Source: Fasciolopsis buskii (Eukaryota; Platyhelminthes; Trematoda; Plagiorchiida; Fasciolidae). From it: 64,000 bases of DNA. The position numbers and the translations under genes are program-made. Every line of letters starts with the position of its first letter. Position 1 is the stretch's first letter. The stretch is from assembly GCA_008360955.1 (NCBI GenBank), contig LUCM01008411.1, positions 186,001 through 250,000 on the forward strand. The letters run 5' to 3'. Shown one piece after another: positions 6,058 through 54,160 of the stretch. The notes under the pieces were generated by a model. That model saw only the letters and a program-made list of their open reading frames with translations. It was not told the DNA's origin and ran no database searches.

Positions 6058-6223
6058 CACAATCTTTCTTCTTCAAAGCAGATTTGTAACACTTGAACAG
6101 AACTTCATCGATAAGGAAATTACACTCTTTGGTGGTCAAAATTTTCTTCGACTTCTTTGATTTGTCACATCCGTAAGCCAGATCGACCAGGAGAACCAGA
6201 CATAGCAAACACAATATCGGAAT
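6058..6223 (-). CDS. Gene A: signal-peptide/Cys exon of the secreted 8-Cys family (partial gene)
   Basis: Internal coding exon of 166 nt (55 codons plus one base). A TAG acceptor follows ggtatttc, and the exon ends TGTG before the donor GTAAGTC. It encodes IPILCLLCLVLLVDLAYG, a hydrophobic leader with a likely cleavage site after AYG. A free Cys, a Lys-rich stretch (KSKKSKK) and then C-x10-C-x9-C follow. The segments VLFKCYK and ALKKKDC closely match genes B and C. There is no in-frame ATG, so an upstream exon must supply the start; I could not place it confidently. The partner exon with C-x2-C-x2-C was not found between 1 and 6057, so it may lie beyond the left edge or be lost. Function is unknown; secretion is inferred from the leader. 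An orphaned or pseudogenic exon is possible, but the reading frame and donor are intact. Confidence 0.7.
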
Positions 6224-6299
6224 CTAGAAATACCATCAATACAAATGGAATACGTGAATTCTTCTAATGCTCAGATTTACGAATCCGGGTGAGTACCCG

Positions 6300-9200
6300 A
6301 GCAACTAAGTTCTATCCCCTAGAAAGTTCACAATTACTCAGTGCAGTCCACAAGTGGGAGTTCGTAAAGTTTGACAAACACTAGATGTCTGCAATGCTGA
6401 CGATAATACACAATAGCAACTGCCAAACTCGCGATGAAGGATTTTGTACTGGGACGGCACCCTCATTGGTTTGGCTGATTCTATCCGCTTACCTCAGGGT
6501 CACAGTGACCTCCGGCTGAGGGTAATACAATTTCCTGAGGAGACGCTTGCATGGATAGACACCTGGTCTCGGAACCTCCCACAGTGATTGTTTTTGTCGT
6601 GGCACGGATTATTTATCTGAACGCTTTTGGCAGATTTGTAACTCACTGTCGCGAACCCTACTCACCGCCTCAAATGGGTTATCTTCTATCCGGCATCATT
6701 CGTGTGCCAAGACCTTATTGGTTGTGGTTCTGTTCAGTTATTTGGTTAACTAGCTATGGCAATGATCTTGTGTACAGTCAGCCATGCATATGGCTAACTC
6801 TTCCCGTGTCTCGCTTTCACAGGAACAGAACTAGCGGAGCATACAAAATGAAGCCAAATGATTAGGAAGCGTGTCTATGCCAATGTTAAATGTTTCCACA
6901 AATTAGCGCTGGATGAGATTACTAGCTTAAATGTAATAAACACCTTACTGCTGAATATCAAGCACAACAAATCTTCAGTGAATTGCATCCCAACTTAAAA
7001 CTGGCATTAAAGTTCGATCCGAACGAATCACTTACTCCTCAAAATATAATCTCACAGAGGAATTAACATGAACGGGTATTGCCTGCTGCACACCAATACG
7101 GTGTGTTCAATATAATAATTTCAACGCTTCCTGCCAAGCCATCGGGAATAGTGCCATATCCACTGCATGCATGCGTTAAAGCCTACTCCCTGGGACGATA
7201 AATGCGACTTTGATGAAAAGCGGGAAATTCCGCAAGCGGACCGCTTCTCTAGACGATTTGCGAACTTGGCTAACGGAGTTACTCCCGTCCGTAGTATAAT
7301 CGGATACAAGGAAAATGAGCACTGGAAGCAAAACCACGGCTTATTCCATGCATTTGCGCAGACGTTCCGTGCGGCCAGGGTTTAGAACTCATTCAGCACT
7401 TGCTCGAGGTTGTACCCGACATTCCACAAAAAATTCCCAAGTCATTCAATCTTATTTTCTATTCGCATATAAATCTGTTCCCGTGGAGTCCGAAGATATG
7501 CAAGTGACTGAAAAAAACCACATCGAATCAGGGAGATCATTTAGAGGGTTGTATATGGCAGCCATTTATTATCCCGACTAATAGTCGCTAATTTGGATTC
7601 CTGTGCATACTGAAAAATTTATTATAGCTTATCAGTTATCGCGAATGTCCGCAACTGTGTTATCCTGGACCATTTAAAGGCATCGGGAAGACACGGGTAG
7701 GTAAGCGATGTTTCCATGCAATTCTAGTAGTCGAAATCAACTTAAAGAGGAGTGCCAAAACAGTACAACATTCGCTTATTTCGGTCGACTTACTAGTGCG
7801 TTAGCTCGCATAATTCGAAATTGTCATTCGGTGAATGTGACTCCGAGCGCATTTTATGCATTTCCGTTGTCCGCCTCCATCAGATATCCGTCTTGTGGCT
7901 AATTCGTCAATTCATACGAAGTACTCTTCTATCGCACACTGAATGCATGACTGATTGTGAAGATGGAGGGGTAACATCTGTCCGACAATTGGGTCATGCT
8001 TAAATGTTTTCACTTACACGTCATAAACCATTTTCACAATCGCAATTCCACGCATGATAAGTAAAGTCACCTGGAAACACCAACACACCAACTAAAAATC
8101 GATACCTTTTTGCTGAATTTTGTCCGATTTAAACTTTCGTCGAGTCATTTTTTCTATCCCGCAAGGGAGGTACATTTTCACGGCCGGGTGGGAGGCATGT
8201 TGAGGGCCATCACTGATTTCACAAACAATTCACCACCCATACTACTGAAAGTCATTTAGTAGCTAGGCGTTGCGAATTGATTATAGCAACCCAGTACTGA
8301 CTGATCGGCCATTGTGGACGGGATGAGTTACCTCGTTTGTGGCTATTATTTGATAACCAAGTTATCATTTAGTGTTGAGGCAAGGCCTACTAACAACAGG
8401 GCACTAGCGTCATGTTGAACCAAATAAACCTGGAACCAAACGAGAATCACTCAGTTTTATGGGCACGCAAATGCATCGCACGATGAAAATTTCTTACTCC
8501 CTTCGGCTTTCCAGTTATCTTCAGTTTTTTGAAAGAGTAAAAAAACCCCTTTTTCGTGATCATTACAATATCCATGTGAAAAGTCAAAACACAAAATTTT
8601 CGCTACTCAGCGGCAATAGGAAGAAATTCCGAACAAGAATGGAGTATAATTGCACAACAAAAGTGGGCAAAATCTCTTGGTTTCTATGCGAACGAAGCAA
8701 GGTAAGTATGAGTGTGGTAAGCACTTCATAATTTCATTTTAAGGCTTCTTTTGGGCATGTTATCAATAAGATTATCGAATCACCGTTTGAGTGTCTTCCT
8801 TTCGCAGACTCAAATTCTCACGCGGTTGACGAGTTATCATATTGGAATCCATTCGAATAACACAACTGATCATTGGCGTATTCATTGTTTGCTTACTTTC
8901 ATGTATATTGGATTGATTTTTTAATTTCACCTGCTTAAAATGGAGATTATTTTTTAGCTGCTCAGCCAAAATGGAGTTCCTCCTTCAACTTCCTAGTTCT
9001 AAATGGCATAAAAAGCACAGTTTCTAGTTCGATCTATTGAGTGGACCCTCATACACATTGAAATACCAAAGTATTGTGGTCATTTTGCCAATGTCTTTCT
9101 GTCAACAATGACGAACACCAGAATCTTCAAAGTTTGTCCAAGTAGAGAAATGAAGTAGCTGCTATAGATGCCCCATTCGCACAGAAACCAGGGATGGAGC

Positions 9201-11509: not shown

Positions 11510-11592
11510 GTGAATGCTATAATGTTAATAACACAGCGTTGTTGGTAGATGTAATGCGCCAACGTTTCGACTACCGTGGGTAGCCTTTCTCA
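11510..11592 (+). repeat. Single copy of the hairpin-arm repeat
   Basis: It shares gtgaat-ctataatgttaataac, gttggtagatgtaatgcgcc, aacgtttcgactaccgtggg and tagcctttctcaa with the arms of the inverted repeat at 38788-38973. No partner arm was seen nearby. Confidence 0.55.
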
Positions 11593-14500: not shown

Positions 14501-15027
14501 ATGTTCGCTCTTCTCGTTCGTAGGTCATCAAGATTCCAATTGACCGGTGGTAATTACAGGCCACAGGATAGCTACACCGTATTGGGTGACGGGGTTTGTG
14601 TGCAAATACATAATAGCAACACTATTCTAAACAGGTATAAATACGAGTTGCACTGAATATCTTGTCCTTTACACTTTGCGCGTTCTTCCAGAGTGACCTT
14701 GATAAAGCAATTCACGGACACATGAGACAAACAAACATTGGACAGATACGTTTCACACAGTGTTTCTCTTGTATTGTGTTAACCATGGAACACAATCATC
14801 CCTATAAGTGCCACTTCGTAATTACAGGGGTTACACACAACAGTCGGCTGTCCTTTCCCGTGTAAAGATACCGAACTGTTGTATACATCATGAGAAGTTT
14901 TCCAATGAAATAAAACAGGTTATACCTCTTACGCATAGTGGTATAACACGCTGTTAATTCCGCCATTTAATAAAACCTCCAGAGTTATTGTTATTCTGAA
15001 AATAATCATTGTCATCAGTCGAATTCC
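11593..15027. other. No recognised gene
   Basis: ORFs here are under 100 codons and overlap on both strands (for example 13278-13578) without recognisable motifs. Confidence 0.5.
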
Positions 15028-15340: not shown

Positions 15341-15346
15341 TTTATT
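15341..15346 (-). terminator. Polyadenylation signal overlapping the gene B stop codon
   Basis: On the minus strand the last codons read gac acc aaa taa aat, so AATAAA starts inside the final Lys codon and contains the whole TAA stop. If used, cleavage 10-30 bases downstream would leave almost no 3' UTR. No better signal was noticed close by. Confidence 0.4.
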
Positions 15347-18300
15347 TGGTGTCCAGTATACGCTTCAGCGAAATGACTGATTGTTGTGCTTGTGAACATT
15401 TGGCTACGGTACCTTTCTGAAGATCGGACACCATGCAACTTTGTGCTATGGGAACACAATCCGTGCAGGTTTGACAAGCGTTCGAGTAGACCGTACTAGT
15501 TTTGGTGGATGGGGTTCCTGAAATGAGACGAAACAGGTAGAACCAATTTGAGATGGCGAATGTCCGCGGCTTTTGTAAACCAGAAGAGTCGGGAACCTTG
15601 TTCGGTTGAATTAACAGACAACGGGGCAAGCTAACAGGTTTCCAAAATCAAATTAAAACTATCTGTGGAGGGGGTAAGTAGTGTTGTTTCGTTCATACTG
15701 CCGGTCTTGTGCTATTGCACGGATCCTCGTAGAGGTCACGTGATTCGTGCAACAAAATTCCCAAGAAAAAAAAGACGAAAAGGAGCTAGATATCTGATTA
15801 GTCATATTTGTCAGCCAATGCTTTTGTCAACTTTGGTATTGCTATTTTAGTGTTATCCAGGCAGATTGGACACATTTCACACGAAGCATAAACCGCCATA
15901 GAATGGTAGTAGCAATTGCATGACTCTTATGCGGCGTAACAATGGATCATAGTTTAGCAATGACTTTCCTCAATTGATTTCTTTTCCCATTTTTTTTTAA
16001 CTTTTAACTTCATTTTGTCCTATGGTAACCGATTTGAAGACAACAAGTTCGCTTACCGATGCATTCATCAAGAGGTGAACCATGTAGTCATTCCGACCAT
16101 TGTCCGAATTGACTGTTTCTTTGATTTGTCCATTCGAACTAGAAATGATTAACACACCTGTCGACCAAAGTCATTTCCGATCAAGGCCATGCTAACCAGC
16201 TGCTCATTCGTATCAGTTGACACTTCAGCACACAGACCACATAGAACTGGTCCTACCTGATCCTAGGGGTAAACCAACAGAACATCGGGATGGTAACCCT
16301 TGATGTTTGGCTATTCTAATTTTCGTGTTACTCTCGTCGATCACATTGTACTGCTGTTTCATTCTTATAAGGTCGGTCGAGCCTTGATACCACGTGGTGA
16401 ATGATTTTATAAGACCGCATGAACTACTACTAACACAGACAAAGTAGCAAAGCCCTATAAGTTATGTTCAGATCCTTCTTTATACTAAGGGTGCCTGCAC
16501 AGAAGTCACCTATCGGCGGGAGTTGATTACTGTTCATTGTGGAACTCGGCAAGACATAAGTGCAATATCATCACTTGGTAAAGTTCAGGAAACGGTTGAC
16601 AGCATGCATGGAAGCCTACTTAATAAGGAATTGGACCCACAATCTTTCGTCCGGAATTTACATCTCAGTTAGAACGCGATGCTTCCTGACAAAAATCCAA
16701 TAGCTGCACTGTGTTTTCTGGTTTCTTAATGATCGGCTAGGCTTTGATATCAGGTGGTGAGTAATTTCGTGAATCTGACATTTATATGACGTACTCTTAA
16801 TAAAATTAAATTGATGAAATGACATTCACGCAATTGGGCCCCACTAAGAGGATGATGATTTTACCTTTTCAGTATTTTGTGCGCGCATAAAAGTGGATAA
16901 AAGGTAGATAACATGATAAGTAAAGGCATTTGTCTCGAGCCCCGATTACCTAATAGTGGCTTGAAATACGTTTCTTCGTTAACCTCATATTTGCTCCGCT
17001 TTATGTGCCTCGCCAATGACCAGTTAGAATTCCGGTTTTTCTGACTATCGCAAAAGTCTTGCGTCATCGCTCTTATCAGCCACTTCCATATGTGTTCAGG
17101 TATTCGTTGTGAAAGCCATCGGATCGCTAGGCAACTGCTGCTATTTTCACGAGTATCCATTTTCATCTCCCAATTGTCCACTAAATGTGCAATTTTTAGG
17201 AGATAACCAACAATTATTTCCTAAAATTCCGTTGTTTTGCATATAAAATCAGGTACAACCGTCAAACGTTCTCCCACGCTGGAGCTCAGTAATTTTCCTA
17301 AGACCTATTAAAATATGCCACGTGGTGGTATTGTCGATGTTTCGATGAGCCGTTGGGAATCAGCTCGGCTAACGAAATGGCTAAGGCTTTCGACTCCCAG
17401 TCGTTCGTCTCAGGTTTGCGTCCTACTTAAGGCGTGATAGGTAGGTACTGCTGATGCTTCCTAACAAAGATAAAATATCGGTACAGTGCTTTCTTGATTT
17501 CCAGTGGCAATTTGGACGTTGACACTGCATGACGAATAATTTGGAAAAGAAACTTATTGATCACTCTATCCAGCAGAAAATGAGATGATGCATTTTGAAT
17601 TTTATCTACACATTTCAGAGAAACTTCTCCAAAACAATAAGTAAGAAAAAGAGAAAACCAGTTGTACTTTCCTGACACACACCTCTTATCCCATGGCATC
17701 AGCAAGAAAGTGAATTCTGTAACGCCTTATCTGCATGGTTCTGGTAACTCAATTAGTCTGATAACAAAATTCACCACAATATTTAGGAATTTTTCAATGT
17801 TGTTTGGAATCGTGTAAAAGCCTTTGGGACTTCCTATCCAAATGACTTATTGGAATCCCTTCTCCGCTGGTCTAAAATATGATCAATCTTAAATGGTCAC
17901 ATTTACAGGAACGGATTGATTGCCCTGGCATTGCCCTATCATTCGCTTGGGAATGTACACTTGACCGAACTTGCGGAAAACAGATGGGTTCCATTCCAAG
18001 CCGAATATGTTGGACGTGAATTCCAATAATCATGGCATCCTTAGGAAATATTATGGGTAATGGAGCAGAGCATTCCGTTTACCCGTGTCGTCTGATGCTC
18101 AGGAAACGATTCGAACTTCCTGGGGGGAGGGGATTGTAATTATTCGCAAGCATCAAACTCATGCTTACATCCGAAAGATGTTTGTAACTTAACTTCACTC
18201 GACAACTTGGGTGTCGGAAACCTTCTGACTTTTAACTCTGTCTAATTTCTTTCAATCGGTTCGGTCGCAGAACATAACAAATAACTTTATTTCACACATC

Positions 18301-19260
18301 GGTTTCACTCTTTTTCCGATTATCAATAAAACAGCAACTGTACCAAATCCCATGTTCCTTGGCATTTCTTAAAAGGTAATAAACACTTCTGTCAATCTGA
18401 CAGATAACCAAGCATGATTATATTTCATTATTATATTTGACGATCATCGGTTGCGCTTTTTCTACAGAGGTGTATGTTCAGAATTGCATATGTTAGCAAG
18501 ATGAGCTTTCTATGAAATTGGAGTCTTTGTGATTATAAGTCCATATTGGAAAGTCAAAACCGATTGCACACGGTCCCGATTTTAATCCAATAAGAAATCT
18601 ATCAATATGACTCTGAAAGAACGTGGTTCGTAATGAAAAGCACTTTCCAACAATGATGAACCACGAATGATCCTTTTTCATGACTGACAAGAATTCATTA
18701 ACAACATCCAAATATCAACGGTGAAAGGCAAGCAAACAAGGTGTGTTTCACTTTTCCATCCAAATGTGAAACAAGCCCTATACTAATCCTAGGAACATGC
18801 CTAGGTGTTCTCCAATGGCGTTGTAATCGAATTTACAATTATTTCGAATCCGTAGTCACCCTAGGTCTTATTGGAGTGTAAATCTGACTTGAAGATTTCG
18901 GATAATGTATCAAAAAAGGAATGTCGTTTATCGATAATCTTCAAGTAGATCTACTATCTCTTAGCTATCTAGAGCTATGTAATTTTACACTTTACGGCAA
19001 CGGTACTTTTGAACATTGTTTTCTATCGCCATTCATCTGGTACAGTTTTGTGAAGCAATTTAGCACAAACATATCACCCAGACATTTAACTTACCACACT
19101 TTTTTTTATTCAGCCCCTTTTTATAGCATTCAAATAGGACATTGTTAATCAGGGAATTGCATTCTGACACACTGGGCGGATTCGTCGATTTGGACCAGAA
19201 ACAACCCGAGACTGATCCGATCACAATAGCACCAAGGACGAAGAGAAACAGCCACATTCC
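15342..19260 (-). CDS. Gene B: small secreted 8-Cys protein, two coding exons recognised
   Basis: Exons at 19095-19260 (166 nt) and 15342-15517 (176 nt) are separated by a 3577-nt intron. The donor is TGTG then GTAAGTT and the acceptor is TCATTTCAG; the join is phase 1 and forms a Gly codon. An ATG lies four bases into the first exon and gives the leader MWLFLFVLGAIVIGSVSG. Next come a Cys, then C-x10-C-x9-C (VLFECYK, NKKKC), and in the last exon C-x2-C-x2-C-x6-C-x12-C followed by SQAQQSVISLKR. From that ATG the product is 112 residues. A clear acceptor (acattcgtag) sits just before the ATG, so a 5' exon or spliced leader may precede it. The intron carries two decayed hammerhead-SINE copies. 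I do not recognise the family; an extracellular disulfide-stabilised protein is inferred. Confidence 0.75.
16345..16785 (+). mobile_element. Degenerate hammerhead-SINE copy (copy E), in the gene B intron
   Basis: It matches the hammerhead/tRNA-derived repeat at 28.9-29.4 kb in order: a tail (taccacgtggtgaatgattt), a spacer (gtgcctgcacagaagtcacc, then gcaatatcatcacttgg), a tRNA-like part too decayed to fold, ribozyme remnants (gatgcttcctgacaaaaatc) and a second tail (tatcaggtggtgagtaattt). The ribozyme core is lost. It lies inside the long intron of gene B, antisense to that gene. Confidence 0.55.
17305..17540 (+). mobile_element. Degenerate hammerhead-SINE copy (copy D), in the gene B intron
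   Basis: It contains a recognisable tRNA-like segment (aatggctaaggctttcgact) and a ribozyme remnant beginning gtactgctgatgcttcctaa. The hammerhead core is damaged: CTGATGA has become CTGATGC and GAAA has become AAAA, so no cleavage is expected. It sits in the gene B intron, about 0.5 kb from copy E and in the same orientation. Confidence 0.6.
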
Positions 19261-19834: not shown

Positions 19835-20609
19835 GTGTGGATAGACAAAAGGAAATTTATTATTAAAACATACGGCGATATACTAGATGATCGTGGAAGT
19901 AATCGGTCTTCGTGCACACAGAAGGCTCGAGTACTATTCACTAATTTGAACCATCCGCGGTGTCGGCGTGACATTCGATTATTCATCAAAGGTCTAGTAA
20001 ACAAATCACCAATGAGTTCACTATTGCTCCACCACTCCAAACACATGGCCACTGACACCCGAAGATGAGCGGAAATTTCCGGTGTTTGAATACCGTTGAC
20101 TTCGTAGTATTGGTATAATATGATGGGAAATTTTTACGAGTAACCAACAAGTTAGGCATAGGTACTGGGTTCTCGGGTACAGTCTTAAGGACAATCACCG
20201 AATGTGAATAGACTGAGGTAATTGGGACATGATTCACTTATGCGCACAGAACGAATGCTCGGTTATCTGTTGTTCTTCGAGACAAGTGATGGTTGGAAGA
20301 TGGTTTGGGTTGGACAATCGATAATATGTTAAATTATGAAAATTTTAACCATTGGACTGGCTCGTATGTGGGCAGTTAGACTACCGAGTTGGAGTCTACG
20401 AGATTTCCCGAAACGATGATTGGAGAGGATTCGATGTGGATCAGTTATGCATTTCGTGGCATTCTTTCTTCTTCGACACCGTTCCTGGGCTTACTATTTT
20501 AACGTCGTAATTTATTGATCCACGTTTATTTTACTGTTTGTCCTAATGCTGATTGAGATGCGAACAGAACCGGAGTGTTTTTGTGCATTTTTAGCGATTG
20601 TACAAACTG
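19835..20609 (+). pseudogene. RTE-like non-LTR retrotransposon, 3' end (copy 1)
   Basis: The translation includes KARVLFTNLNHPRCRRDIRL, the conserved stretch after the reverse transcriptase domain of flatworm RTE elements, which are non-LTR retrotransposons that copy by target-primed reverse transcription. Further on, stop-interrupted frames give VNRLR.LGHDSLMRTERMLG and SWSLRDFPKR, the usual C-terminal motifs. Stops and frameshifts make it inactive. From 19925 to 20609 it is almost identical to 25770-26454, while upstream the two diverge sharply. Confidence 0.65.
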
Positions 20610-22109
20610 GAAATCTGAACGGGACTTGGTACGGATAACACTTTCATCAGTTTAGTTGCGAGGTCATCGGAACCAAACTGACCGTCCCACCCGGAACTAT
20701 TGTAGTTTAGTCAAATACTTAACTGAAATATCATTCGAGTTCATATTGCAATGTTCAGCCTGTGGCATGAAGCCTGTGAGTATTATTACTGTGAAAAGAG
20801 ATGAGTGGCTATATTGTACTTTCACACCACTCAAGTTCGCTTTGCAGAATCAGTCAAAATCTTTAGAAACACAGTCAACTAAAAGAGTCACACAAAAGAT
20901 ATCGTAGGACTCACTTGCACGGAAATCCACATTACTGCTCCACCCAATCCGTTTTGGGGCCTGATTTTTCACATCTTTTATATTGTGGTTTTTCATGACT
21001 TTCCAAGAGCAACGTCGTGTCATTCGCAAACAGGTTGACCATTTTTTTTTCAATCTGTCTGACGAGGTGTGTTAGCAAAATAGATCAAGAGACCAAAAAA
21101 TACAACAAAAAGCGGACAACTCAAACCAGTCGATTATCCAACTGTGAGATGGTGATTTCGCTCGACCATCCGTTCTGGCTTTGCCTGAGTACATGACTCA
21201 ACCCTTAGATGCTTGTACACCCGATGACTTCACCAATGACACAAGTTTGACATTGAAGGTGGGAACATAAGACCGCGTTCGTTGACCATTTTGTGACTAC
21301 AAGCCGACGTCATTCAAGCGTTTAAGCATTAGGTTTTAGACAGCTTACGGTCAACAAGACATGTTCAAACATCACGAATGTGTGCTTCATGTAGAAAGAA
21401 TACTCACTTCGCCTAAGGTTTGATTCATGTCACGGTACACCTTCCGATTGCAAAATGGTTGCGATCAAACGCGACAGGCGTACGACGATCAAAGACATCC
21501 AAACCTGGACAACTGAGCAGTCCAAGCTGGTTACCTACGGAAAGTCTTCAGTCATGCTTGTTTGACTCCAAGTCACTGAATCACTGATTTATTCATCTGT
21601 TAAGCTATCGTTTCACTTAGGCAATTAGTGGAATGGTTCTTTTTAGTAATACGCCAATTTGAAACGGAAATCATTCATGAATTCATTCTAACAATGAGAC
21701 AATACAACGGAAAGCGGAAAGGCGGCAACCAGAAAGACCAAGGCGATGGGGGGAACTACGCAGACAAAACCATTGGGTGTTCGAACAGACTTCCTTTCTA
21801 ATATCACAGGGAGCAAAATTTCAAAGACGCCACTTTAAAATCACGCTATACTCAAGCCACGACCTGTTTAACAAAACTAACTTGTATGTAGTTCACCAAA
21901 GTTCACCAAATTTCTTGGCAATTTTTACCAACGCTTTTTGGCAACAGCACTTTTAACGATGAAATAAAGGCTTTCCTTTTTGTTTGCACCGAGGCCAAAA
22001 AGTTTTTGCTTGAGTGCAGACACGAAGCGCAACGCAAGCACTTCATGTGGCTCCGGTAAGTCAAAACCCCCAGCACGTGTTGACAACAGGACGGTAATTA
22101 GCACACGAA

Positions 22110-22530
22110 AACACAATCATGGAACCGCTCCTGTCGGAGACCGCCGATGTCTACGTAGTATCGCTTGGATTGGATGGAGTGACGGGGTGAGTAATGTGAA
22201 GATGAGGAATCTAGTACTAGGTGCCAATTCCTAGAATACCTTGTTTCAGCGTATGAAACTTAGTAGACTATGCTGGTCGGGTCACGTGTTGCGTATGTCG
22301 AACACTCGTCTACCAGATCGTGCCCTATTTTGCGTTTCTCTCACGAAGTGGAAGAAGCCATATGGCAACGTGGAATGAGAAAATGTACAGCGAACTTGGG
22401 TAAAGTAGGTGTCTCACGTCTTCGTGGTCAGTGTCCGAAAGACTCGTCAACCAGCTGGCTAGAGTCACTGAAGGATATGGCAATGAATCGCGGACAGCGG
22501 CCATCGCGTTGTCATTTTTAATCGAATCAG
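22110..22530 (+). pseudogene. RTE-like retrotransposon 3' fragment
   Basis: Broken frames give RRCLRSIAWIGWSDGVSNVK, then NLVLGANS, and finally KVGVSRLRGQCPKDSSTSWL with ESLKDMA. These match, in order, the C-terminal motifs RCLRSIARI-W, VSN-EVR-VLG and RLRGWGPKDS-WLETLKDMA of flatworm RTE polyproteins. Frameshifts near 22235 and 22400 show it is dead. No upstream part of the element is attached. Confidence 0.6.
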
Positions 22531-25214: not shown

Positions 25215-26454
25215 CAATGATCTGAGAACGCAGGCGCTTGATTCATGGACTCATTATTTTTTGATTTGGAAGCGGCGTTTGACTCAGTAAATCGTGCTGT
25301 CCTGTGGCACTGGTTCTCTTAAAAGGGTATGCTGGAGAAATCTATTTCACTCATCCAGTACCTCTATGTTACAAACTGAAATCAAGTTGCACATATGGGG
25401 ACGATTCTGTTGAGTTCATTACGAGAGGTGGTGTTCTTCAGGGTTGACCTCCTTCAATGTTTGGTTTCACTTTGTCATTGATGTCTGACTGACAACGTTA
25501 TCTTCATGTGGGAATAGGGTAACTGGTATTTTTCCAAGCAGGAACTTGTCAGACTTAGAATATGAAGACGATATTGCGCTACTAAGTAAAATTTACGTAA
25601 GCTACGATAGCGTCGGTATGATTGGTATGAATCTTGCCCCTTCGAAATGTGAAATTCCATCACTGGACTGGATCTGGCTAGGGAGCAACTGGATGAGGTG
25701 GACAGACTCAGTTACTTGCACCACATCTGGTGGCCATTCGTCGGAAGAAGGCCTTTGCGCACATATAAGGCTCGAGTACTATTCACTAATTTGAACCATC
25801 CGCGGTGTCGGCGTGACATTCGATTATTCATCAAAGGTCTAGTAAACAAATCACCAATGAGTTCACTATTGCTCCACCACTCCAAACACATGGCCACTGA
25901 CACCCGAAGATGAGCGGAAATTTCCGGTGTTTGAATACCGTTGACTTCGTAGTATTGGTATAATATGATGGGAAATTTTTACGAGTAACCAACAAGTTAG
26001 GCATAGGTACTGGGTTCTCGGGTACAGTCTTAAGGACAATCACCGAATGTGAATAGACTGAGGTAATTGGGACATGATTCACTTATGCGCACAGAACGAA
26101 TGCTCGGTTATCTGTTGTTCTTCGAGACAAGTGATGGTTGGAAGATGGTTTGGGTTGGACAATCGATAATATGTTAAATTATGAAAATTTTAACCATTGG
26201 ACTGGCTCGTATGTGGGCAGTTAGACTACCGAGTTGGAGTCTACGAGATTTCCCGAAACGATGATTGGAGAGGATTCGATGTGGATCAGTTATGCATTTC
26301 GTGGCATTCTTTCTTCTTCGACACCGTTCCTGGGCTTACTATTTTAACGTCGTAATTTATTGATCCACGTTTATTTTACTGTTTGTCCTAATGCTGATTG
26401 AGATGCGAACAGAACCGGAGTGTTTTTGTGCATTTTTAGCGACTGTACAAACTG
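25215..26454 (+). pseudogene. RTE-like retrotransposon, reverse transcriptase to 3' end (copy 2)
   Basis: Decayed frames give DLEAAFDSVNRAVLWHWFS, then GGVLQG.PPSMF (the RQGCPLSP motif with a stop), then LEYEDDIALLSK (the catalytic Y-x-DD box with Glu replacing the usual Ala), APSKCEI, and KARVLFTNLNHPRCRRDIRL. The last part, 25770-26454, is nearly identical to copy 1. Several stops make it non-functional, and the upstream endonuclease domain was not recognised. Confidence 0.65.
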
Positions 26455-29201: not shown

Positions 29202-29272
29202 GCCCGGTAGCGTAACGGCTAAGGCGTTCGACTCAGAATCGTTCGTTCTGGGTTCGAGTCCCAGCTCGGGCG
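29202..29272 (+). repeat. tRNA-like segment of the hammerhead SINE
   Basis: A 71-nt tRNA-like sequence starts gcccggtagcgtaacggcta and ends ccagctcgggcg. GCCCG at the 5' end pairs with CGGGC at the 3' end. The D-arm/A-box region is tagcgtaacggctaagg and the B-box/T-arm is ggttcgagtcc. The anticodon position reads CAG within gactcagaatc. Several copies sit directly beside a ribozyme, so this is a SINE head rather than a working tRNA gene. Confidence 0.7.
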
Positions 29273-29282
29273 CGGTGGATGT

Positions 29283-32791: not shown

Positions 32792-33469
32792 TTACTTTTG
32801 TTTTACTTCCCGCTGTAGAGAAATAACACTTTGTTGCGCTTGTGCACATTTGGACACGTCACCCTTCTTCAGACCTTTGAGCATGCATTCTTGAGCAATG
32901 GAAACACATCCGTTACAGCTTTGACAGCTTGAGGAATAGACGGTGCTGGTTTTTGATGTCGGTAGTCCTAAAATGCAAAATGGTTGTGACCAAGCGAAGA
33001 TTGCGTTCGAGTCGAAAAATTATTGCGTCATTTTGTGTTTCACATGAAAGCTCGTATCCACCAAGAAAGCATTTGTGATAAAAAATAATGATGAGTGGAA
33101 ATTTCGTTCATCGCTAGTAACTTTGGCGAATAGAGTTTTAGTGCACTGGGAATTTTGTGAAGATAACCAACCCCGGGAACCACAAGATAAGCTCGTTAAT
33201 CACTTCACTGACGCAGTGTGTTTTAATTAAACATATGCTCCCGTCTGAGCGAAATTCGCATTTATGGTGCACTCTCTAATAAGAACGTGGTAACCTAAAT
33301 CTGAAAACACTTTGGAATTAATGGAATCAAAGTTAAGGTTTACATGTGAAACTGACTGCATTTAGGCAAGTAAACGCGTGAAATATCGGCCCTGTTAACC
33401 CGCATCTCCCTGGCAATCAAAAGTTGGACATTAGAAGTGATTTTATAGCGAAAACAGTCTATCGCTCTT

Positions 33470-33507
<38 letters not shown>

Positions 33508-34138
33508 CGTTTGTCTATAATAGCATTCAGCAATATCAAAAATTTATTCAAATATGGCACCGACCATTAAATCGTCCAGAACCAGAATGGATTATTCGAA
33601 ATGTATTAAATCGTATGATCATTGCCAGAATTCCGGTAGAAATTTAGTACGTGTGCTCATAACTTTCATAAACCTCTTTTATCATTTCCGCTATGTTCGT
33701 TTCTTTCACGTTGGGACATTACACGCACCACAGCTAACGTGGTGATCCACCGAGCGCAATTTTCCGAGTGGTATTATTTGCAGAAACTACCACTACCATT
33801 GTCAGTAGTTAAAATGAAAATGCATAAGCTGAATAAGCAATGACAAAGGCAGTTCACAAAAGAACTTACCACACTTTCGTTTCTTCAGCGCCTTTTCATA
33901 ACACTTCAGTACAACTTCGGATATTTTTTTATTGCACTGAGCTTGGGTGAGGGTCTTCTTTTTGGAAGAGAAGAAGAATCCCTCTGATAATCCCACAATG
34001 AGCAGGCTGACCAGTACAAACTGCAAAAAAGAGAAATAGTGCAGACAAAAAATCAGTATCATGCATCAATTTTACGGCATTGATACCAGCGAACGCGTTC
34101 TTCTGCTCTATGTAACTCACTATGACAAAGTGTCTCAT
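32792..34138 (-). CDS. Gene C: small secreted 8-Cys protein, complete three-exon model
   Basis: Exon 1 is 34121-34138 (18 nt, MRHFVI, donor GTGAGT). Exon 2 is 33870-34020 (151 nt, acceptor tctcttttttgcag, donor GTAAGTT). Exon 3 is 32792-32967 (176 nt, acceptor gcattttag, ending in TAA). Intron phases are 0 and 1. The predicted protein has 114 residues. Residues 1-20 (MRHFVIFVLVSLLIVGLSEG) form a signal peptide, then FFFSSKKK, then C-x10-C-x9-C, a Gly-Leu-Pro linker, C-x2-C-x2-C-x6-C-x12-C, AQAQQSVISL and a basic tail. The mature chain has exactly eight cysteines, enough for four disulfides. A TATA-like box lies about 45 bases upstream of the ATG. The 902-nt second intron carries a TATC microsatellite. 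The family is unrecognised. Secretion is a strong inference; the biological role is unknown. Confidence 0.82.
33471..33507. repeat. (CTAT)n microsatellite in the second intron of gene C
   Basis: About nine ctat units, located between exons 2 and 3 of gene C. Confidence 0.95.
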
Positions 34139-44588: not shown

Positions 44589-46696
44589 ATGTGCAATCAT
44601 ACTGCAGAATTAGAACGGACATTTCTGACATCAACCCATGTGCTGGGCCAATTGAATGAGGAAGAAGAACGATCTTTCGAGGAATACGTTCAATCCATTT
44701 TACACAAACACGTGACTCGGAAGGGCCAAGTGTTGATCAAACGACTGGAAGGATCAGAACCATCGATTTTATTTTACAGTTTATCGGACTTCATGCTAGA
44801 CAAGACATTGTCATAAGTTTTATCCCTGGGGCCCAAATTTTACTGTCCAAATTGCCAAAGTGCACCAGTGGAATTCGAATTTTTCCCCTCAGTTGTCTAG
44901 TTTATCCCCGTCAACACAAATGAAAATACAAACATTTAAGTCAACTTTGGTGAACCTCTGCTATTGGTCTCATGGCGCTTAACACTCGACGAGTGATTTG
45001 TTGATGCCAGAACATAAGAGACAGTTGAGAGAACTGCAGAAAAGTGCAGACATCATGTTACCAAGAGCAAACAAGGATGTATGCACAGTTCGCCTTACAA
45101 GTCTGACGACGTAGCAAAAATGAGCACCATTCTAAATGACGAATCGAAGTTTGCAAAAATGATGAAGGGGAATGATAAAACACATCAGATTGAAAAAAAT
45201 TTTTGTTCAGCATCCTGAGACGGTCGAGGGAAACGGATATGATAGGTTCGACCAAATTTGAACCGATTCGGCCTACGAGTACCCTTATTCCCAGAATATA
45301 AGGATAACCCAAAATACATAAAAATGGAGTTTCTTTGAGGCCCACTTTCGACATGTACAATTCGCCTGATAACGTGACAGCAAAATGGATGGCTAAGGTT
45401 GCTGGAACCCGTTGGACAGAAGATGACAAAACACGGCTTTATCCGGAGAACGACAAAGAATGTTTTCTTTAGACGTCACCTCTATTTTTATCAACGTTTC
45501 GACCATGGAAACAGTGGAATACCTCTGTGACCAGATCAAGAACAGTGGGTTGGCGACAAGTCTTTCGATAGCAGACTTGAAACTAATGATGTTCTGTTGT
45601 GCATTCAATATCCAGTTTAAAATTGACAATCAAATTTACCGCCAAAATGACAACGTGGGAATGAGGTTCCCAGTAGGAACATCACTATCCAAAATTTTCA
45701 TGATGAAGCAGGGAAGAGGGCCACGCGAATCTTCAATTCAAATCCACTACTTATATAAGCGTTATGTGGATGACATCTTCTGTGTACTCAACCCATTGAC
45801 GAGAACTAACCAACTGCTGGATATTTTCAACTCGGCTCACGCAAATGGAAAATTCACAACAGAGATGGGGTTGGACAGTGAAATAGCATTCTTAGATATA
45901 CAACTACGTCATAGAGAAGACGGCTCATTTCGGCATTCCGTACACAAGAAAGCTACGTAGAATGGATAATACACCAACTTTCACAGTTCTGTATCTTTTG
46001 ATGTGAAGAGGAACCTAATAGCCAAAACAAGAAGAATATGCAAAGAAGATAATCTTGAAGCTGGATTGCAGAAGAGTATTGACAGAAAATGGCTTCCCAA
46101 GTAAATTAATCGATAAGATCTTGGAGATAATAAAGGAAGTTCCAGGGAGGACAACGGTGGAGAGAAAGCCAATATACATATTTCTGCCATTCAAAGGTGA
46201 TAAGCTAGCAGAGATAGCACGACGAAGACCGACTAGCTCTATCAATAAGACATTCTACACAGCTAAGCTTCGAATCTTGTTCAAATCCCGTCCCGTAGTG
46301 TCATTATGGTTGGAAGACGAAGTTCCTGATTCTGCAGCCTCGTTTTGTATCTATTCATTCACATGTTCCTGTGGCACAATTTACACTGGCCGCACGACCA
46401 GGCGCTTGTCTGAACGCATCCGTGAGCACCACCCGACATGGTTAGGCACTGGAACAATTAAGTCACTTAATAGCGCAGTTGTTTCACATTTAGCACAGAC
46501 TAACCACACCGTGAATGTGACGCAAGCTTTCCTGACCCTGTATAAGGTCAGAGGTCAACAATCCAGGTTGGCAAAGTGTCGCCTCTTGTACACTGCAGCA
46601 GCTGTCGCGATCCGTCTTCACAATCCTCCACTTTGTTCTCAAAGACAATTTGTGGTTGCGCTTCAACTCGCCTGTCCCACCCACTTCCCAGTGTAA
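44589..46696 (+). pseudogene. Penelope-like retroelement, decayed (reverse transcriptase plus GIY-YIG endonuclease)
   Basis: In order: an N-terminal stretch (44589-44816), a frame with LSLGPKFYCP near 44823, NDESKFAKMMKGNDKTHQIE near 45140, then an open frame at 45460-45960 with MFSLDVTSIFINVSTMETVE and the catalytic box YVDDIFCVLN, and a last frame to 46696. The last frame has FTCSCGTIYTGRTTRRLSER and IREHHPTWL, the GIY-YIG nuclease region typical of Penelope-like elements (terminal-transcribing retroelements distinct from LINEs). The conserved G(S)PLGP segment is altered, and stops and frameshifts at about 44820, 45030-45440 and 45960 make it inactive. Confidence 0.8.
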
Positions 46697-47274: not shown

Positions 47275-47772
47275 TTGAATAAATTGATGGTATCGGATTC
47301 CATTCCTTATTACCGGTTCAATCCGTACTCTTCCTGTCCAAAATACTTTAACATACATAAAAATTTGCACTACGTACTCTTGATTCTAAGGAAATCGTCT
47401 GTGACACTTGTGTACTCATTACGGGCTGCACCCGATTCCAGGAACACAATCAAGAAAGTGTGCTATCCAGAAGGCAGACTATATTTGTCTTTTATTAAAT
47501 TACAGGATTTATTTGCCGGTATTATCACAATGAAACCTGTTCATTTGTCTCCTCGTAGCCTTTTTCCGATGGACATAAGCGACTCATCCTTGGAAATATT
47601 CCGGAAAGTTTGTGCAAGTTTTATGCTCGGACTTCGGGAACCCATGATTCAAAGCCACGAATATGAACTCGCAGGGAACCGTTTATTTCTTCTTGGTATC
47701 TTGTATATCGCTTTGCTATTCGCACCATCCCCGTCGTTTCCATCGTTGAGGAGGATAGCCGGGAAGCCATAG
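47275..47772 (+). CDS. Unrecognised 165-codon ORF, possible exon
   Basis: The longest uninterrupted plus-strand frame not explained by a transposon fragment (apart from the 199-codon frame at 23.4 kb). It includes YPEGRLYLSFIKLQDLFAGI, MKPVHLSPRSLFPMDISDSS and a hydrophobic stretch RLFLLGILYIALLF near residues 142-156, which could be a membrane segment. I recognise no family. It lies about 0.6 kb downstream of the Penelope-like element. A chance ORF is possible, but its length and composition make it worth checking as part of a host gene. Confidence 0.3.
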   Translation: MNKLMVSDSIPYYRFNPYSSCPKYFNIHKNLHYVLLILRKSSVTLVYSLRAAPDSRNTIKKVCYPEGRLYLSFIKLQDLFAGIITMKPVHLSPRSLFPMDISDSSLEIFRKVCASFMLGLREPMIQSHEYELAGNRLFLLGILYIALLFAPSPSFPSLRRIAGKP

Positions 47773-48811
47773 ACCGGCTTATTATGGAATTCACTGGCTA
47801 CGGTTGGTTTAATTTGCCTAGAAAGTTCTAATCCACTTTGGACATCTGGACTAATTAGATTTATAAAATGTCACACAAGAATCGTGCAAGGTAATCTTTA
47901 TAGCCAAATAAAGTCCATAAACTGTGATTCATCCTCGAATGCTATGTCCAACTTACTAGTCTACATTGTCCCCCTAGTTAAGCGCAGAAGTGACCACCTG
48001 AATGCAATTTCGTGAACCACAACGGCACCTCGTGTGTCTGAAATATTCTGCCGCTAGTCCGAGTGAACATCGTGAATGATGCTCCCGTCAGCCGAACCCA
48101 CTGGAACGTATTGATAATGTGCATATACCTTTAGTCAGATATAAACTATCATTTGGTGCCATGAACAAACGGTCTCCCGTTAACTCCTGATGACTTTCGT
48201 TTATAAATCACGTGGCTAAAATTAACATAATATTCAGGTTACATGACTGTATACAACTTTGAAAAGTGGTTAACTTAATTTGCCCCACATATTCCAGAGA
48301 AATTCGCTGGCTTTCGTTAGTTTGTTTACTTTCTCATTACTTAATTTCTATTTTTCCTCGCTATTGACGTTGGACTTCAATTCCTACGGTCGATTTGTTT
48401 CTGAATGAAGCGAACATAGTCCTCTGTGATTATCCATTTCATCCAATTATGGGTTACTTTTGCTCATGAATTTTCTAGGGTTTTCATCAGTCTTCGACCT
48501 ATGGCAAACTCAAGGTAGGCCTTGGTGTTCTTCCCAAATGTACATTTAAAACACATTTGCTTGTCTGTGACTTATGTGACCCCAAACTGAAGATCGCTTT
48601 GGATTTGCATTCTACTGTACCAAGAACGATAACGAAATGCAGATAGTCGTATAACTGAGATGAACGTGGCGATTTACTATACTCGCATTTTCACCCCTAC
48701 TAACTCGTTCTAAGCTATTCACATTCAGAGCTCTACATATTGTCAAATATGACTAGCAACACACGGATGCGAATGACAGCTTGCAGGGCCAAAGACTGTA
48801 CTGGGCCAGTG

Positions 48812-48836
48812 ATATAAATATATATATATATATATT
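48812..48836. repeat. (AT)n microsatellite
   Basis: atataaatatatatatatatatatt run. The sequence just after it includes tgacgtttcgatccaaac, which loosely resembles Penelope-type ends. Confidence 0.9.
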
Positions 48837-51634
48837 AAAGGTTAGAGGAGGTACACTGTTATGACGTTTATTGTGACGTTTCGATCCAAACTAGAACATG
48901 CTGTCAGATGTACCTGTGAAAAAATTCACAGTTCGAGATTCAGACCACAGAAAGCTAATCACATCGGAAGCCCGAACCTTGAGACAGGCCCCGGGTTAAA
49001 AAACGATCTAACCATATTGTCATGATACAGCGACAGTTGTGTTTCTCTAAGTAGCGCAAGCCAATCCTAGAAAATTTCCAAAACACTAGCTGCCCCATAG
49101 AACATGTTGGAGACTTGTCGTCCAAGTTAATTTCAACAATTTAATCTGTTGATCATCATTGCTTCTCAATATTACTTTCGACTGACTGTCAGTTCTGGTT
49201 CATGCATGTGAATCAAGATCTTCCAATTGAAATTTCCACATCGTGAACCATCTCACGCGCACACCAGAGGATAGATGATGACCTTTAGTCCCACGTCCAT
49301 CATTTCCCACCTATGTACTTTAAGTAGTACTTTATTTATGTGGCTTATAGACTTTAGACAGTCAACCAACTCGTCTCTCTTGAAGTGCTAATAGCGGTTG
49401 AACTTCATCACACGTTGGTTTTCATTTCTTCTTTTGAAGATCAAATACTTGAACCTCTTCAAACGATCGTTGTTTCCGTGCTGATCCACAACTGTGGGGA
49501 TCAAGAGTAACCAGAAACGAGGTTATTCACCACCTGCTATTGCTTCTCAATGCATTCTACAAAACTGCTACTACCATTATTATTGTTATTAATATTATTA
49601 TTATTAATTTGCCGAATGTTTCCAGTGAATTAGGTGAATGGTTATCTTCCCGTTGTAGCCGTGTTAAATGAAACGATTCTCGTTAGTTGAGAGAAGCTCT
49701 CACCGCGTCTGAGTATTCAAGCGAGTTGACGACAGTAGATTTGTACTTCTTACGGCTTATTTATAGTGTAAGAGACACTTTGTTGTAAAACGCAAAAGAG
49801 TATTGTGGTGTCTGCTCCGATATCAACCGGTAAATCGTTGATGCGTCCAATCTCCGATTGTTTATCATCAACGCACATTTACTCTAAGAGATAAAAAAGA
49901 CCAAGTCGAGCCAGTACTTAAGTTTGCTTTCCAGGTCAAAATAAATCACTTACGTTGTTTTTTTTTCTGGTCTGTAATAAATGATCAATCGGTCAACTGG
50001 CTAATTCGGCCCATCATTATAAACTGATCTTATAATGAGACTTGTTTTCATTCAGTTGATCGATCGAAATAACAAGCGCGATGTCACTGCACACTGGCTG
50101 ACCATTCGATCAGGATAATGAACTTGACGACGCATGATCCATCAGCAGGTTGATTTCATACCTGTCAGAGTAGTCCAAGTTACCAGAATTCTCAATCGGA
50201 TTTGGAAATTAAGAAGTCGAGGAGTTTTCAACTTAATTTTATGGATAAGTATCTATGCAAAACATATTTACTTTCCCAGAAACTGTACATCGAACAAGCC
50301 ATCTCATTGGTAGTTGACAAAATTCCAATCATCTGAAGACTAAACTTTGTCCTTTAGGCTTGGTGCTTCACGGAATAAATATAGAACTCAGTTTTCTAAC
50401 AGTGGACCAAGGATGTTGTATATTGGTATCGGGTAATTAAACCATTCAGAATGCTCTTAAGTTTGTCTTAACAGATTCCAATTTCCAAGTGAGTGCCTTA
50501 TCGTTATCTATCTAATAATACGGAAATGAACGACACAGTCATTGCAAAATAAATGAAAGCTTCTCGTGACTGCCATGCAGGCCTACTTTCACCGATCAAA
50601 AATAATCCACTGGTGACCGGCTAGCCAGACACGGATATCAAACGCCACGTGTCTTTTTTTTTGACAAAGGACCGATTCCATCGAGCGATCGTATTCGCGG
50701 TTCTCCATTATTTCTAGTTCATATATATACCGTATCGTTTCGAAGTGATCACGGGAACTATTCATTCTCGCTATTTGAATGGTCTTTTCCCCCATCAGGT
50801 TTACGTAATATTACTAAACGCTTGACAAAATGTAAATAAATTGATGTTGATATTGACTTTTTGTACTTGTTCGAGTCTTCACTATCCTCTTTCTCGTTTC
50901 CAATTTCACAAATGGGGAAGGACTGATTACAAATTGGATTTCATCAAGCCACGGGAGGTCATTCATTACTATCAGAAAAGTAGCATCATTAAATCACGTC
51001 ATGTTTCTCCCGTTCTTCTGTGATTTCTCCCCCATAGACCCGGTTTTGCTTAAAAAATGAAGGTTTTGAAAAATATTTCCTCCTGGAATGAGTGGTAGTC
51101 AGTGGTTTCTTTATCCTATCACGGATGAAATTGCTTACATAATTGTGTTATCTGGAACTGCCTCCATAAAACATTTACACAGAAGACTCTTTCGAACTTT
51201 AATCATTTCCCACATTCTTCGCAAGGTAGCGTCTGCCGTTCTACATTGTTTGGAAGGAATAAATTCTACGAACTTGATTATTTATTACGTGATCTGCATT
51301 CACTCCATGCGGGACCGAATCTCAGCCAAATTTCTAATAGATTTCAAGTGATTAATTATTTTTGCATACGGTTTCTTGCATCCCAAAATCTCGTGATGCA
51401 ACATTGAAGATGAATTTTCTGACCGGAAAGACTGATGCCCGTCTGGACAAAACACAAACTAGGAGGCATAAAAGAAACACCAAAATTCATTATTCCATTG
51501 CCTTCGCTGAAGAAATTGTCCCATGTCCCCAAAGCTCCCTTTGCAGGAATGTAAAATGAAGGTAATCGGGCAAAATAGCTGGCAACTTATCGAACACACC
51601 TGTCCACGATGGACTTTCAGACACACAACCACCC

Positions 51635-51692
51635 ATGCATGCACGCACGCATGCACACACACACACATATATATATGTATATATATATACAA
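51635..51692. repeat. Mixed CA/TA microsatellite downstream of gene D
   Basis: Runs of gcatgcac, acacac and atatatat lie just beyond the AATAAA of gene D. Confidence 0.9.
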
Positions 51693-51712
51693 AGAAAATA
51701 AATTCTATAATT

Positions 51713-51718
51713 TTTATT
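51713..51718 (-). terminator. Polyadenylation signal of gene D
   Basis: AATAAA on the minus strand (context aacaataataaaaatt) lies 61-66 bases beyond the gene D TAA at 51779-51781. This is a normal distance for a short 3' UTR. The mixed CA/TA microsatellite begins just past the expected cleavage site. Confidence 0.4.
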
Positions 51719-51778
51719 ATTGTTAATGAAATAGTTGTTCTGTTTTCTGTCACAATGCACACAAACACACTAGAATCG

Positions 51779-54160
51779 TTACCATTTGTACATTCTTTTC
51801 AATTGACGGTTCATTTGTTGCGCCGCGGCGCACTGATTGGCAGGGGCTAAGGAATAGTTTTTGTATAAACATTTGTGTGCATAACGTTGACAATTTCCAC
51901 ATTTCTTACAAACTGCTGTCATCTCTTCGGGGCTTCCATTTTTCGGTACTTCTGAAAAATGGAATAGAAAAATAGTGAATAAGTCAGAGAATGGAAAATA
52001 GTTAGAATATGTTACAGTGATGACGATAAGATAGAAGGAGCTTTCTGGTAACACATGACAATTTCTGATAGTTCGAACCCGATGGTTAGTCTTCTTCTAA
52101 TTCGAATTGGGATATAATCATCATTCCGGAAACAGTCAAGGTTTTGTGACTGCTAAAGTTCAGCTTTTGTTTCTGCTATGATTAGCAAGGTTTTGCGCTG
52201 ATCCACTCCAATCTCGTTTACTACTTCATATCACAGTCTACTTGAATGCAGAAATATGAGAGAGTAGTGGAGAGTTTGAAAAATGTGATTAAATTGAGAA
52301 AGCTCTAAAAAGGAGAAAAATTTTCAATACAACTACAGCATTCGGTTATTTCCATCCGGTTCGTGTAATTGTGCAGCGATGAAAGATCTTGCCAGTCACA
52401 ATCTGAGAGTCTAGTTTGTCCTTCTCGGACTACGTTACCGGGTGGTATTTCTGTGCTAGTTTTCCTGACATCGATTGCTTCTCAGTCAGCAGCTAGCACA
52501 AACTTTATTGGATGTCGTTCATCCCGGAGGCCTAGATCACTTGTTTGAAGCTGGTAAAATCAGGTCCACAATCACCGATTCACCTATTAGGAACGATCAA
52601 TATTAAGAACATGCTCGTCTTACTGTATAAACGTGCAACTAGTTTTTTCATTTGACTGTACACCGAGGTGGTTTACAAAGACGTTCAGTTCACAGTATTT
52701 TTGAATTATATTTCCACCAGTGATTCAGTTGGCCCATTGATATCGGATTATCATAGATCCGATAGGGATGTGTCCATTTAGCCTATATTTACCTGTGCAT
52801 ACGACAAGGTTGGTTGATTGTCGGTTTCCTAGACAGCAATTTTCTAGCAGATTTATACTTAGCAAATCTTGTGAAACAGATGTGCGCGAGTAGCATTACC
52901 ACAATCTCAGCGTTTTGAAGTAGCAAATCAAAACCTAAGTGAATGTAATGTGTCGGAAAAACTGTATGAGTTTTCAAAATAACAGACCATGGTTTTTGAA
53001 GTCGGTTTTATTCACAGCTCAGGTGGTTATCAAACGCTATCGATCGATCATTGTTACTGGCGTACAGTTGGCAACCTAAGATCAACCACCAATGTCTTAA
53101 GGTAACAGACGGTATTCAGATAATCCTAGCGGCAAAAGCCAGTCATACAGCAATGATCAATAAACTGTCATCCATCCACATGGGATTGCTCTCTACCGGT
53201 CAAGGTGATCAGTGAGAGGAGATTGACATGTACACGTGCTGTCTCGCTAGCCGAATCTACCGAGTGGTGGCCGCAGCAAATGAACTTTTGCACGTAGAGT
53301 TCGTGAGACGGTTTCGCGGAGCAAACCGTTTTTTCTCTGTATCAAGATTCGTTCTCTACGGTTCATACAAGTCCTTTTGGGCAAACGCACTGAAGAGTTG
53401 TTGCGGTTAAAATACCAGTTTTTATGTATCTTGCAATTTACTCAGGCAGGTTGGCACCTGAACAGCTACTAAATTCACCAAGGTCACGAATCGGTATACA
53501 TATCTCATAATCGAAATACAATTCACGGTTTCTGGTTTGTAAGACTTTGTGATGACTGAAATTGGCATTTGAATCGCAAACGTTTCAACACCACCTGAAC
53601 CAGCCTTATCAACAGGTTAGCAGTGGACTCTGAGGTTGCCTACATTTACGCTGGTTCTATCCAAAAACATGACCTTGACCAGGGTAAAGAATCTAACCTT
53701 GAACCTCTTCCAACATGTTAAGTAAGGAAACTTTCAAAATAATAGCAACTGAAAACTTATAGATATCACCTTCTGAAGCTGGCCTTAAATGTGATCGAGG
53801 CAAGTTCACAATGGTTTCACATTTTCATGGAGTAGACCTTACAAAAATATCACATGAAATTCTTAAAAATACCTGTTCTAGTCACAATAGAGTTTTGTTA
53901 TTCGGTACCAAAAGATGGGACAAATTTTCTGTCAACTGATAGTCAAGTACACCAGGACTACTGTCCCATTTTTCATCCTTCCCAGAATGTAAGATTAAAA
54001 TACGGAACTCACTGCACTTCTGGTGTCCTGTGGCCCAGTCATAGCAGACGGTGACAATTTTTTTCATGGCATAGTTACAATCCGCATTGAATAGATGCTG
54101 TTCGGATGCACTGTGACAAGCGCCGATAGTCAACAAAACCAGGAGCAACACGAATCCCGG
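51779..54160 (-). CDS. Gene D: divergent secreted 8-Cys protein, two coding exons recognised
   Basis: Exons at 54013-54160 (148 nt; acceptor cactatag, donor GTGAGTT) and 51779-51951 (173 nt; acceptor ccatttttcag, stop TAA) are separated by a 2061-nt intron. The phase-1 join forms a Lys codon. The leader is PGFVLLLVLLTIGACHSA. The Cys framework is the same as in genes A to C: C-x10-C-x9-C, then C-x2-C-x2-C-x6-C-x12-C, ending in AAAQQMNRQLKRMYKW. Most residues between cysteines differ from A, B and C, and the Lys-rich stretches are reduced. No ATG lies in the leader exon. A possible 24-nt start exon, MLRENLFV at 54246-54269 before gtattt, would join in frame but has a weak donor. An AATAAA signal lies 61-66 bases past the stop. 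This is a diverged paralogue of unknown function. Confidence 0.72.

Follow-up and report, generated by a model that had tools for sequence, protein, structure and literature searches.

Gene organisation at the locus

The window analysed here, a stretch of 64,000 nucleotides from the giant intestinal fluke Fasciolopsis buskii, holds four minus-strand loci (genes A to D). Judging from their sequence, these are probably paralogues, intact and spliced, arranged in tandem as one cluster. Each has an exon, referred to as exon 2, which encodes a hydrophobic leader followed by C-x10-C-x9-C, and a last exon in which C-x2-C-x2-C-x6-C-x12-C precedes the stop codon is seen within the window for three of them (Table 1). 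Every exon 2 of A to D has a GT donor in phase 1 and an AG acceptor in phase 0, and therefore at least one further exon is likely to lie upstream. A sequence-only reading of this DNA had located the four leader exons and their donors correctly, and had assigned the last exon to three loci; gene A, however, does not lack it, since an intact copy with the same cysteine spacing lies 3.2 kb outside the window, on the far side of its start, after an intron of 9.3 kb, and all four genes therefore carry eight cysteines. The same reading had described the family as dispersed, whereas the arrangement is rather a same-strand tandem cluster with one copy elsewhere.

Table 1. Exons of genes A to D and candidate first coding exons (window positions, unless a contig is given)
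Feature	Position	Strand	Content
Gene A exon 2	6058-6223	minus	leader and C-x10-C-x9-C; phase-0 acceptor, phase-1 donor
Gene A last exon	C4958:182597-182769 (the window's own contig, beyond the window)	minus	
Gene B exon 2	19095-19260	minus	leader and C-x10-C-x9-C
Gene B last exon	15345-15517	minus	C-x2-C-x2-C-x6-C-x12-C, then TAA
Gene C exon 2	33870-34020	minus	leader and C-x10-C-x9-C
Gene C last exon	32795-32967	minus	C-x2-C-x2-C-x6-C-x12-C, then TAA
Gene D exon 2	54013-54160	minus	leader and C-x10-C-x9-C; D-type
Gene D last exon	51782-51951	minus	C-x2-C-x2-C-x6-C-x12-C, then TAA
Gene A candidate first coding exon	7794-7811	minus	six codons, GTAAGT donor
Gene B candidate first coding exon	20915-20932	minus	six codons, GTGAGT donor
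Gene C candidate first coding exon	34121-34138	minus	six codons, GTGAGT donor, phase 0

By itself C-x10-C-x9-C is weak evidence, with 1.7 matches expected per random window; two extra, unrelated matches lie at 14727-14792 and 1716-1781. The last-exon pattern gave no match in 60 random windows. Profile hidden Markov models (HMMs) built from each exon match family exons alone within the window; the next-best match has E=0.15 with the exon 2 model and E=0.17 with the last-exon model. A Pfam scan of 10 of the window's 124 open reading frames (at least 75 residues) gave no match at E<=0.01.

Beyond the cluster, a fifth gene (E) was found on a different contig, bringing the F. buskii count to at least five in own-genome searches that used two relatives, P0001 and P0002, as queries. 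P0001 gave 11 matches at E<=10. Eight of them are family exons (of A, B, C and E), and the other three (on C5718, C1561 and C3955) were rejected; C-x10-C-x9-C does occur in the match on C1561 (E 0.34), but 30 kb of sequence around it (9.4 kb of this downstream, to the contig end) yielded no match to the last-exon HMM. With P0002, five of six matches are family exons (of B, C, D and E), and the sixth lies on C1784 (E 1.76). Across 70 kb of flanking sequence on C4958 (146001-186000 and 250001-280000), the exon HMMs match the last exon of gene A alone. Over the five genes, lengths range from 148 to 199 bases for exon 2 and from 152 to 173 bases for the last exon.

Six-codon candidates for the first coding exon are present for A, B and C, and none was seen for D or E within the 7 kb scanned. 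The candidate of gene C resembles the start of P0006, a Fasciola hepatica relative, in length and first residues by eye. Gene B has an alternative six-codon candidate, which begins 200 bases upstream of exon 2, as well as an in-frame ATG within exon 2. Amongst public F. buskii proteins, FBUS_01819 matches gene A and FBUS_01821 matches gene D. The former includes residues identical to those of gene A exon 2, but its model runs through the donor and has another first exon (20 codons, start 6552); the latter agrees with our junction between exon 2 and the last exon of gene D. Both public models look faulty, and for B and C no public protein was returned by the profile searches.

Cysteine framework and constraint

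In eight of nine aligned proteins the cysteines are spaced 10-9-14-2-2-6-12; the ninth, gene E, has 10-9-8-2-2-6-12, its middle loop being x8 as against x14 in A to D. The identical spacing proposed for every member holds for A to D and breaks at E. A QQ motif proposed for the last exon occurs in B, C and D, and A carries ER at the equivalent place. The alignment omits P0003 and P0005, which repeat D and A. All eight cysteine columns are invariant, compared with 4 of 65 others, and mean identity outside the cysteines is 37%. The corresponding hypergeometric P of 4e-8 overstates the case, because it takes related sequences to be independent of one another and because the cysteine pattern had served to choose the first exons. 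For the pair B and C, dN is 0.35 and dS 1.50 (dN/dS about 0.23). By these comparisons, constraint on the family is strong, in line with the purifying selection on the cysteine framework that had been suggested earlier.

The mature forms are basic, with charges of +5 to +15. Six of the nine contain nine cysteines (cleavage sites set by eye), and therefore the pairing would not be a simple four-bridge arrangement in every member.

Relatives within the Fasciolidae

A profile built from the window exons alone detected P0001 (6.5e-37) and P0004 (1.8e-28) of Fasciola gigantica and P0002 (1.3e-32) of F. hepatica; with these relatives added, it detected F. hepatica P0006, which is D915_000758, at 7.7e-36. 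A single-sequence protein search gave no scored match, whereas the alignment-based searches found these relatives. No relative outside the Fasciolidae was found at E<=10 in profile searches of public proteins, a method that needs shared five-residue words and may let distant relatives escape. The full-length relatives cross the predicted exon junction of A to D without a gap. The common exon phases, the eight-cysteine framework, the constraint and these relatives in F. hepatica and F. gigantica together bear out the proposal of a multigene family.

In print, D915_000758 is the 'uncharacterized tegumental protein Fhteg1' of F. hepatica, of unknown function and explored as a vaccine; the identification rests on the gene number that PMC11484910 gives. 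The protein is full-length, has a leader and shares the eight-cysteine spacing of A to D, E differing in the middle loop alone. Identity over the domain is 47% for A, 52% for B, 63% for C (the closest of the five), 33% for D and 42% for E. On homology along the mature domain and on cysteine spacing, we assign genes A to E to the Fhteg1 family. The earlier statement that no known family has this pattern fails: one member, D915_000758, has both a name in print and a vaccine trial. The match to a described family that had been set as grounds for refutation is therefore present in part, although no convincing Pfam family or PDB chain was found. No description of the eight-cysteine framework was found in the literature searched, whose coverage stops short of the original FhTeg1 paper (McCusker 2020, doi 10.1016/j.vetpar.2020.109244). 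Two full-length annotated relatives, F. gigantica FGIG_12185 and FGIG_12187, each on a 24,476-base contig, are named hypothetical proteins, and a literature search by their gene tags returned no paper. FGIG_12187 groups with A (support 100/99), and FGIG_12185 shares 67-70% of its residues with B and C.

Gene D pairs with F. hepatica D915_000757 (support 100/100), and the two carry a sequon at matching positions. They show 22-33% identity to the other seven proteins, from which they are split with full support. D915_000757 and D915_000758 bear consecutive gene tags, on contigs of equal size. Such divergence could mean that the subtypes differ by tissue, C-like members being expressed in the tegument and D-type members and E elsewhere, for example in gland or reproductive tissue. 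D915_000758 alone was found to be named as tegumental, D915_000757 having no mention in the main text of PMC11484910, whereas exon phases, cysteine spacing and the cluster itself are common to the subtypes; we regard a split by tissue as possible, though the less favoured option.

Predicted fold and comparison with other systems

The AlphaFold model of P0001 predicts a bundle of five helices, with block pLDDT values of 92-97 from residue 41 onward, and that of P0002 has the same helix order at lower confidence (blocks of 81-92 from residue 31 onward). Comparison of the P0001 model with PDB structures gave no clear match, and PDB sequence searches with the window proteins and with the relatives returned one chance match each (E 0.61 and E 1.8). 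In Pfam, three relatives and the proteins of A to D, with exon 2 alone standing for A, drew only unrelated names below their cut-offs, the best at E 0.008.

Twin CX9C (CHCH) proteins carry paired CX9C motifs on a two-helix hairpin, and the spacings C2-x9-C3 and C5-x9-C7 also occur in the present framework and would permit such a hairpin. Their setting is, however, mitochondrial, as against the secretory-type leader and five predicted helices here, and no CHCH model was listed for the same seven proteins. Flatworm micro-exon genes (MEG) consist of chains of very short symmetric internal exons; here only the first exon may be very short.

Proposed function

The genes probably belong to a Fasciolidae family, with Fhteg1 as its named member, of small, basic, disulfide-held proteins secreted to the fluke surface. 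The leader is hydrophobic and no later anchor is seen (signal peptides, cleavage sites and anchors were judged by eye), which agrees with the small secreted nature proposed earlier. The product would enter the secretory pathway by means of the leader, which would then be removed, and the mature protein would fold into a basic, disulfide-held helical bundle of about 10.5 kDa. It may then reach the surface of the tegument and there contribute to the outer coat that faces the host, where its charge could, as a guess, favour binding to or sitting on anionic glycans or membranes. In the literature consulted, tegument expression was found for one relative only, D915_000758, and vaccine use likewise for this F. 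hepatica protein, whereas the F. buskii genes are read from sequence. The step from a secreted family to the host interface, which the sequence-only reading had offered as inference, gains support because this relative is published as a tegumental protein. The flatworm parasite source implied by that reading is likewise borne out; overall, the reading is partly supported.

In a stronger version of the host-interface proposal, the products would mainly be released instead and would modulate immunity by acting on the cells or fluids of the host. Small size, basic charge, abundant cysteines and a leader with no anchor by eye would suit such a role, and so would tegument expression of one relative. 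We nevertheless consider it rather unlikely, as the literature passages yielded neither a host target nor an activity, and describe the relative as a protein of the tegument whose function is unknown. A cattle trial of rFhTeg1 with rFhTeg5, non-significant according to a review table, does not decide the matter.

A lipid-binding or membrane-active role, as saposin-like or antimicrobial proteins, appears improbable. Fluke saposin-like proteins are likewise small, secreted, helical and cysteine-rich, and small basic cysteine-rich helical bundles would fit such a class. The saposin cysteine framework, however, differs from the eight-cysteine pattern of A to E, and none of the seven proteins searched (one being A exon 2 alone) matched the Pfam saposin model up to E 10, with filters that remove most matches above about 0.1. 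An expansion of saposin-like proteins is reported for one fluke, the rumen fluke Calicophoron daubneyi.

That the loci are chance patterns or decayed copies can practically be dismissed: the leader motif is expected by chance and the genes are truncated or missed by public annotation, but the frames are open, the splice sites agree in phase, B and C show the low dN/dS given above, and full-length relatives span the junction.

Returning to secretion to the fluke surface, a more specific and speculative version, which we hold to be doubtful as it stands, is a surface coat particular to the Fasciolidae: disulfide-stapled helical bundles without outside relatives, duplicated within fasciolids and kept as a conserved tandem block.

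Implications

For two of the genes the public F. buskii models look wrong, and two others did not turn up among public proteins. Disulfide mapping and tests of binding can start directly from the structure model and the cysteine framework. Fhteg1, an explored cattle vaccine antigen, is now placed in a family that is clustered in a related fluke, with at least five genes there, and F. hepatica likewise has two subtypes, whose gene tags are consecutive. Such redundancy bears on vaccine design, and if the coat reading is true, it could help explain the non-significant protection by the FhTeg1-containing vaccine.

Exon structure and size of the family

Matching of the cysteine patterns across the window identified four leader exons (exon 2; C-x10-C-x9-C) and three last exons (C-x2-C-x2-C-x6-C-x12-C) of the tandem genes A to D, all on the minus strand, and the exon patterns described in the sequence-only reading are thus real. 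The leader exons share an AG acceptor in phase 0 and a GT donor in phase 1 (4/4), and the last exons start in phase 1 with TAA directly after (3/3). For C-x10-C-x9-C, 1.7 matches are expected by chance per random window and two unrelated ones are present here; taken by itself, this pattern would be weak evidence. The last-exon pattern occurred in none of 60 random windows, and HMMs of each exon gave no further copies of either in the window. A last exon had been assigned to three of the four loci, which is correct for the window; gene A, however, does not lack one, since an own-genome search, which puts the window at C4958:186001-250000, located its copy outside the window, with the frame intact and the Cys spacing of the other members. 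Including gene E, a copy on another contig (C4167), the family in F. buskii has at least five genes; the D-type query P0002, from F. hepatica, revealed no extra gene in the own-genome search.

Upstream of A, B and C there are six-codon candidates for a first exon, each with a strong donor, and for D and E no such candidate was found in the 7 kb scanned. Among such short start-to-donor frames in the window, six codons were counted in 4 of 12 on the minus strand and 0 of 10 on the plus strand. The public model of gene A uses another first exon.

Two public F. buskii models correspond to these genes, FBUS_01821 matching gene D exactly from an internal Met onward and FBUS_01819 holding exon 2 of gene A unchanged. 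Both look faulty, because FBUS_01819 reads past the donor of A into the intron and FBUS_01821 begins within exon 2. No public protein for gene B or gene C came back from two alignment searches of 5.8 billion proteins.

Coordinates of exons and other features (window positions unless a contig is named)
Feature	Position	Strand	Source
Gene A last exon	C4958:182597-182769	minus	own-genome search
Gene E exon 2	C4167:44976-45174		
Gene E last exon	C4167:47624-47775		
FBUS_01819, resembling read-through of gene A	6058-6223		
FBUS_01821, resembling truncation of gene D	51782-54160		
Direct repeat, copy 1	19905-20609		
Direct repeat, copy 2	25750-26454		
tRNA call, Leu (CAG)	29202-29273		
Open frame	45427-46693		
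Open frame	25489-25791		
Open frame	21968-22231		
Run of N	about 62800-63400		
C1561 frame	L029:449-514		

Other features of the window and genome

Between genes B and C lies a direct repeat of 705 bases (99.1 % identical), whose ends look unlike LTR ends and which may be read as a recent duplication or a mobile-element fragment. The sole tRNA call of the window sits in a repeat with further copies near 16.4-17.5 kb and 35.8-36.2 kb, which favours a tRNA-derived SINE over a true tRNA gene. Three open frames resemble, by eye, reverse-transcriptase or retroelement remains; none had a Pfam match at E<=0.01. The window holds 580 N, and its final 2 kb are low in GC (0.29, N counted in). The C1561 frame has C-x10-C-x9-C spacing (E 0.34) and was set down to chance, there being no last exon in 30 kb of C1561.

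Relatives and probable age of the cluster

The alignment searches recovered six proteins in total, all from Fasciolidae and two of them from F. buskii itself. A profile of the window exons alone detected P0001 and P0004 of F. gigantica (6.5e-37 and 1.8e-28) and P0002 (1.3e-32), and P0006 (D915_000758 of F. hepatica) followed at 7.7e-36 after these three had joined the profile. In the tree, gene D groups with D915_000757 of F. hepatica (support 100/100; 75 % identity over the domain) and gene A with FGIG_12187 of F. gigantica (support 100/99; 63 % identity), A being likewise 63 % identical to FGIG_12185; the tree does not settle the branching order among B, C, FGIG_12185 and D915_000758. D915_000757 and D915_000758 carry consecutive tags, and matching contig sizes are listed within each Fasciola pair (457,361 bases for these two, 24,476 for FGIG_12185 and FGIG_12187), from which we infer that the cluster predates the divergence of these genera.

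Constraint on the cysteine framework

An alignment of the five F. buskii gene models with four Fasciola proteins has 73 gapless columns across its nine rows; among these, 8/8 Cys columns are invariant as against 4/65 others and identity outside Cys averages 37 % pairwise (lowest 12 %). The hypergeometric P of 4e-8 makes the case look stronger than it is, as relatives are treated as independent and the first exons were picked by their Cys. The proposed constraint on the framework holds, the spacing differing only in gene E, by the length of the middle loop; judging from this gene, the loop, at the exon junction, tolerates length change. The purifying selection argued for earlier agrees with dN 0.35 against dS 1.50 for B-C, while A-B and A-C (dN 0.41 and 0.47) are saturated at synonymous sites.

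Link to Fhteg1 and possible role

The claim that no known family is involved does not stand, as D915_000758 is already named Fhteg1 in print, where it is described as tegumental, uncharacterised, without a known function and lately explored as a vaccine candidate, with McCusker 2020 cited (PMC11484910). A review table gives rFhTeg1 with rFhTeg5 in cattle as non-significant (PMC10750376), and FhTeg1 is named as marking the cell bodies of the tegument (PMC9143473). The interpretation given in the sequence-only reading is right in part. The window genes are new members of a family with one protein already named, and tegument expression is in the literature for that one relative.

By eye, the leader is hydrophobic and no hydrophobic anchor follows. 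The predicted mature proteins are basic (about 10.2-10.7 kDa, net charge +5 to +15); with cleavage sites assigned by us, 6/9 have a ninth Cys near the N-terminus, which might allow dimers. The proteins would be secreted into or onto the tegument, where they may form a disulfide-stapled, possibly protease-resistant component of the surface coat, perhaps kept on anionic glycans by their positive charge.
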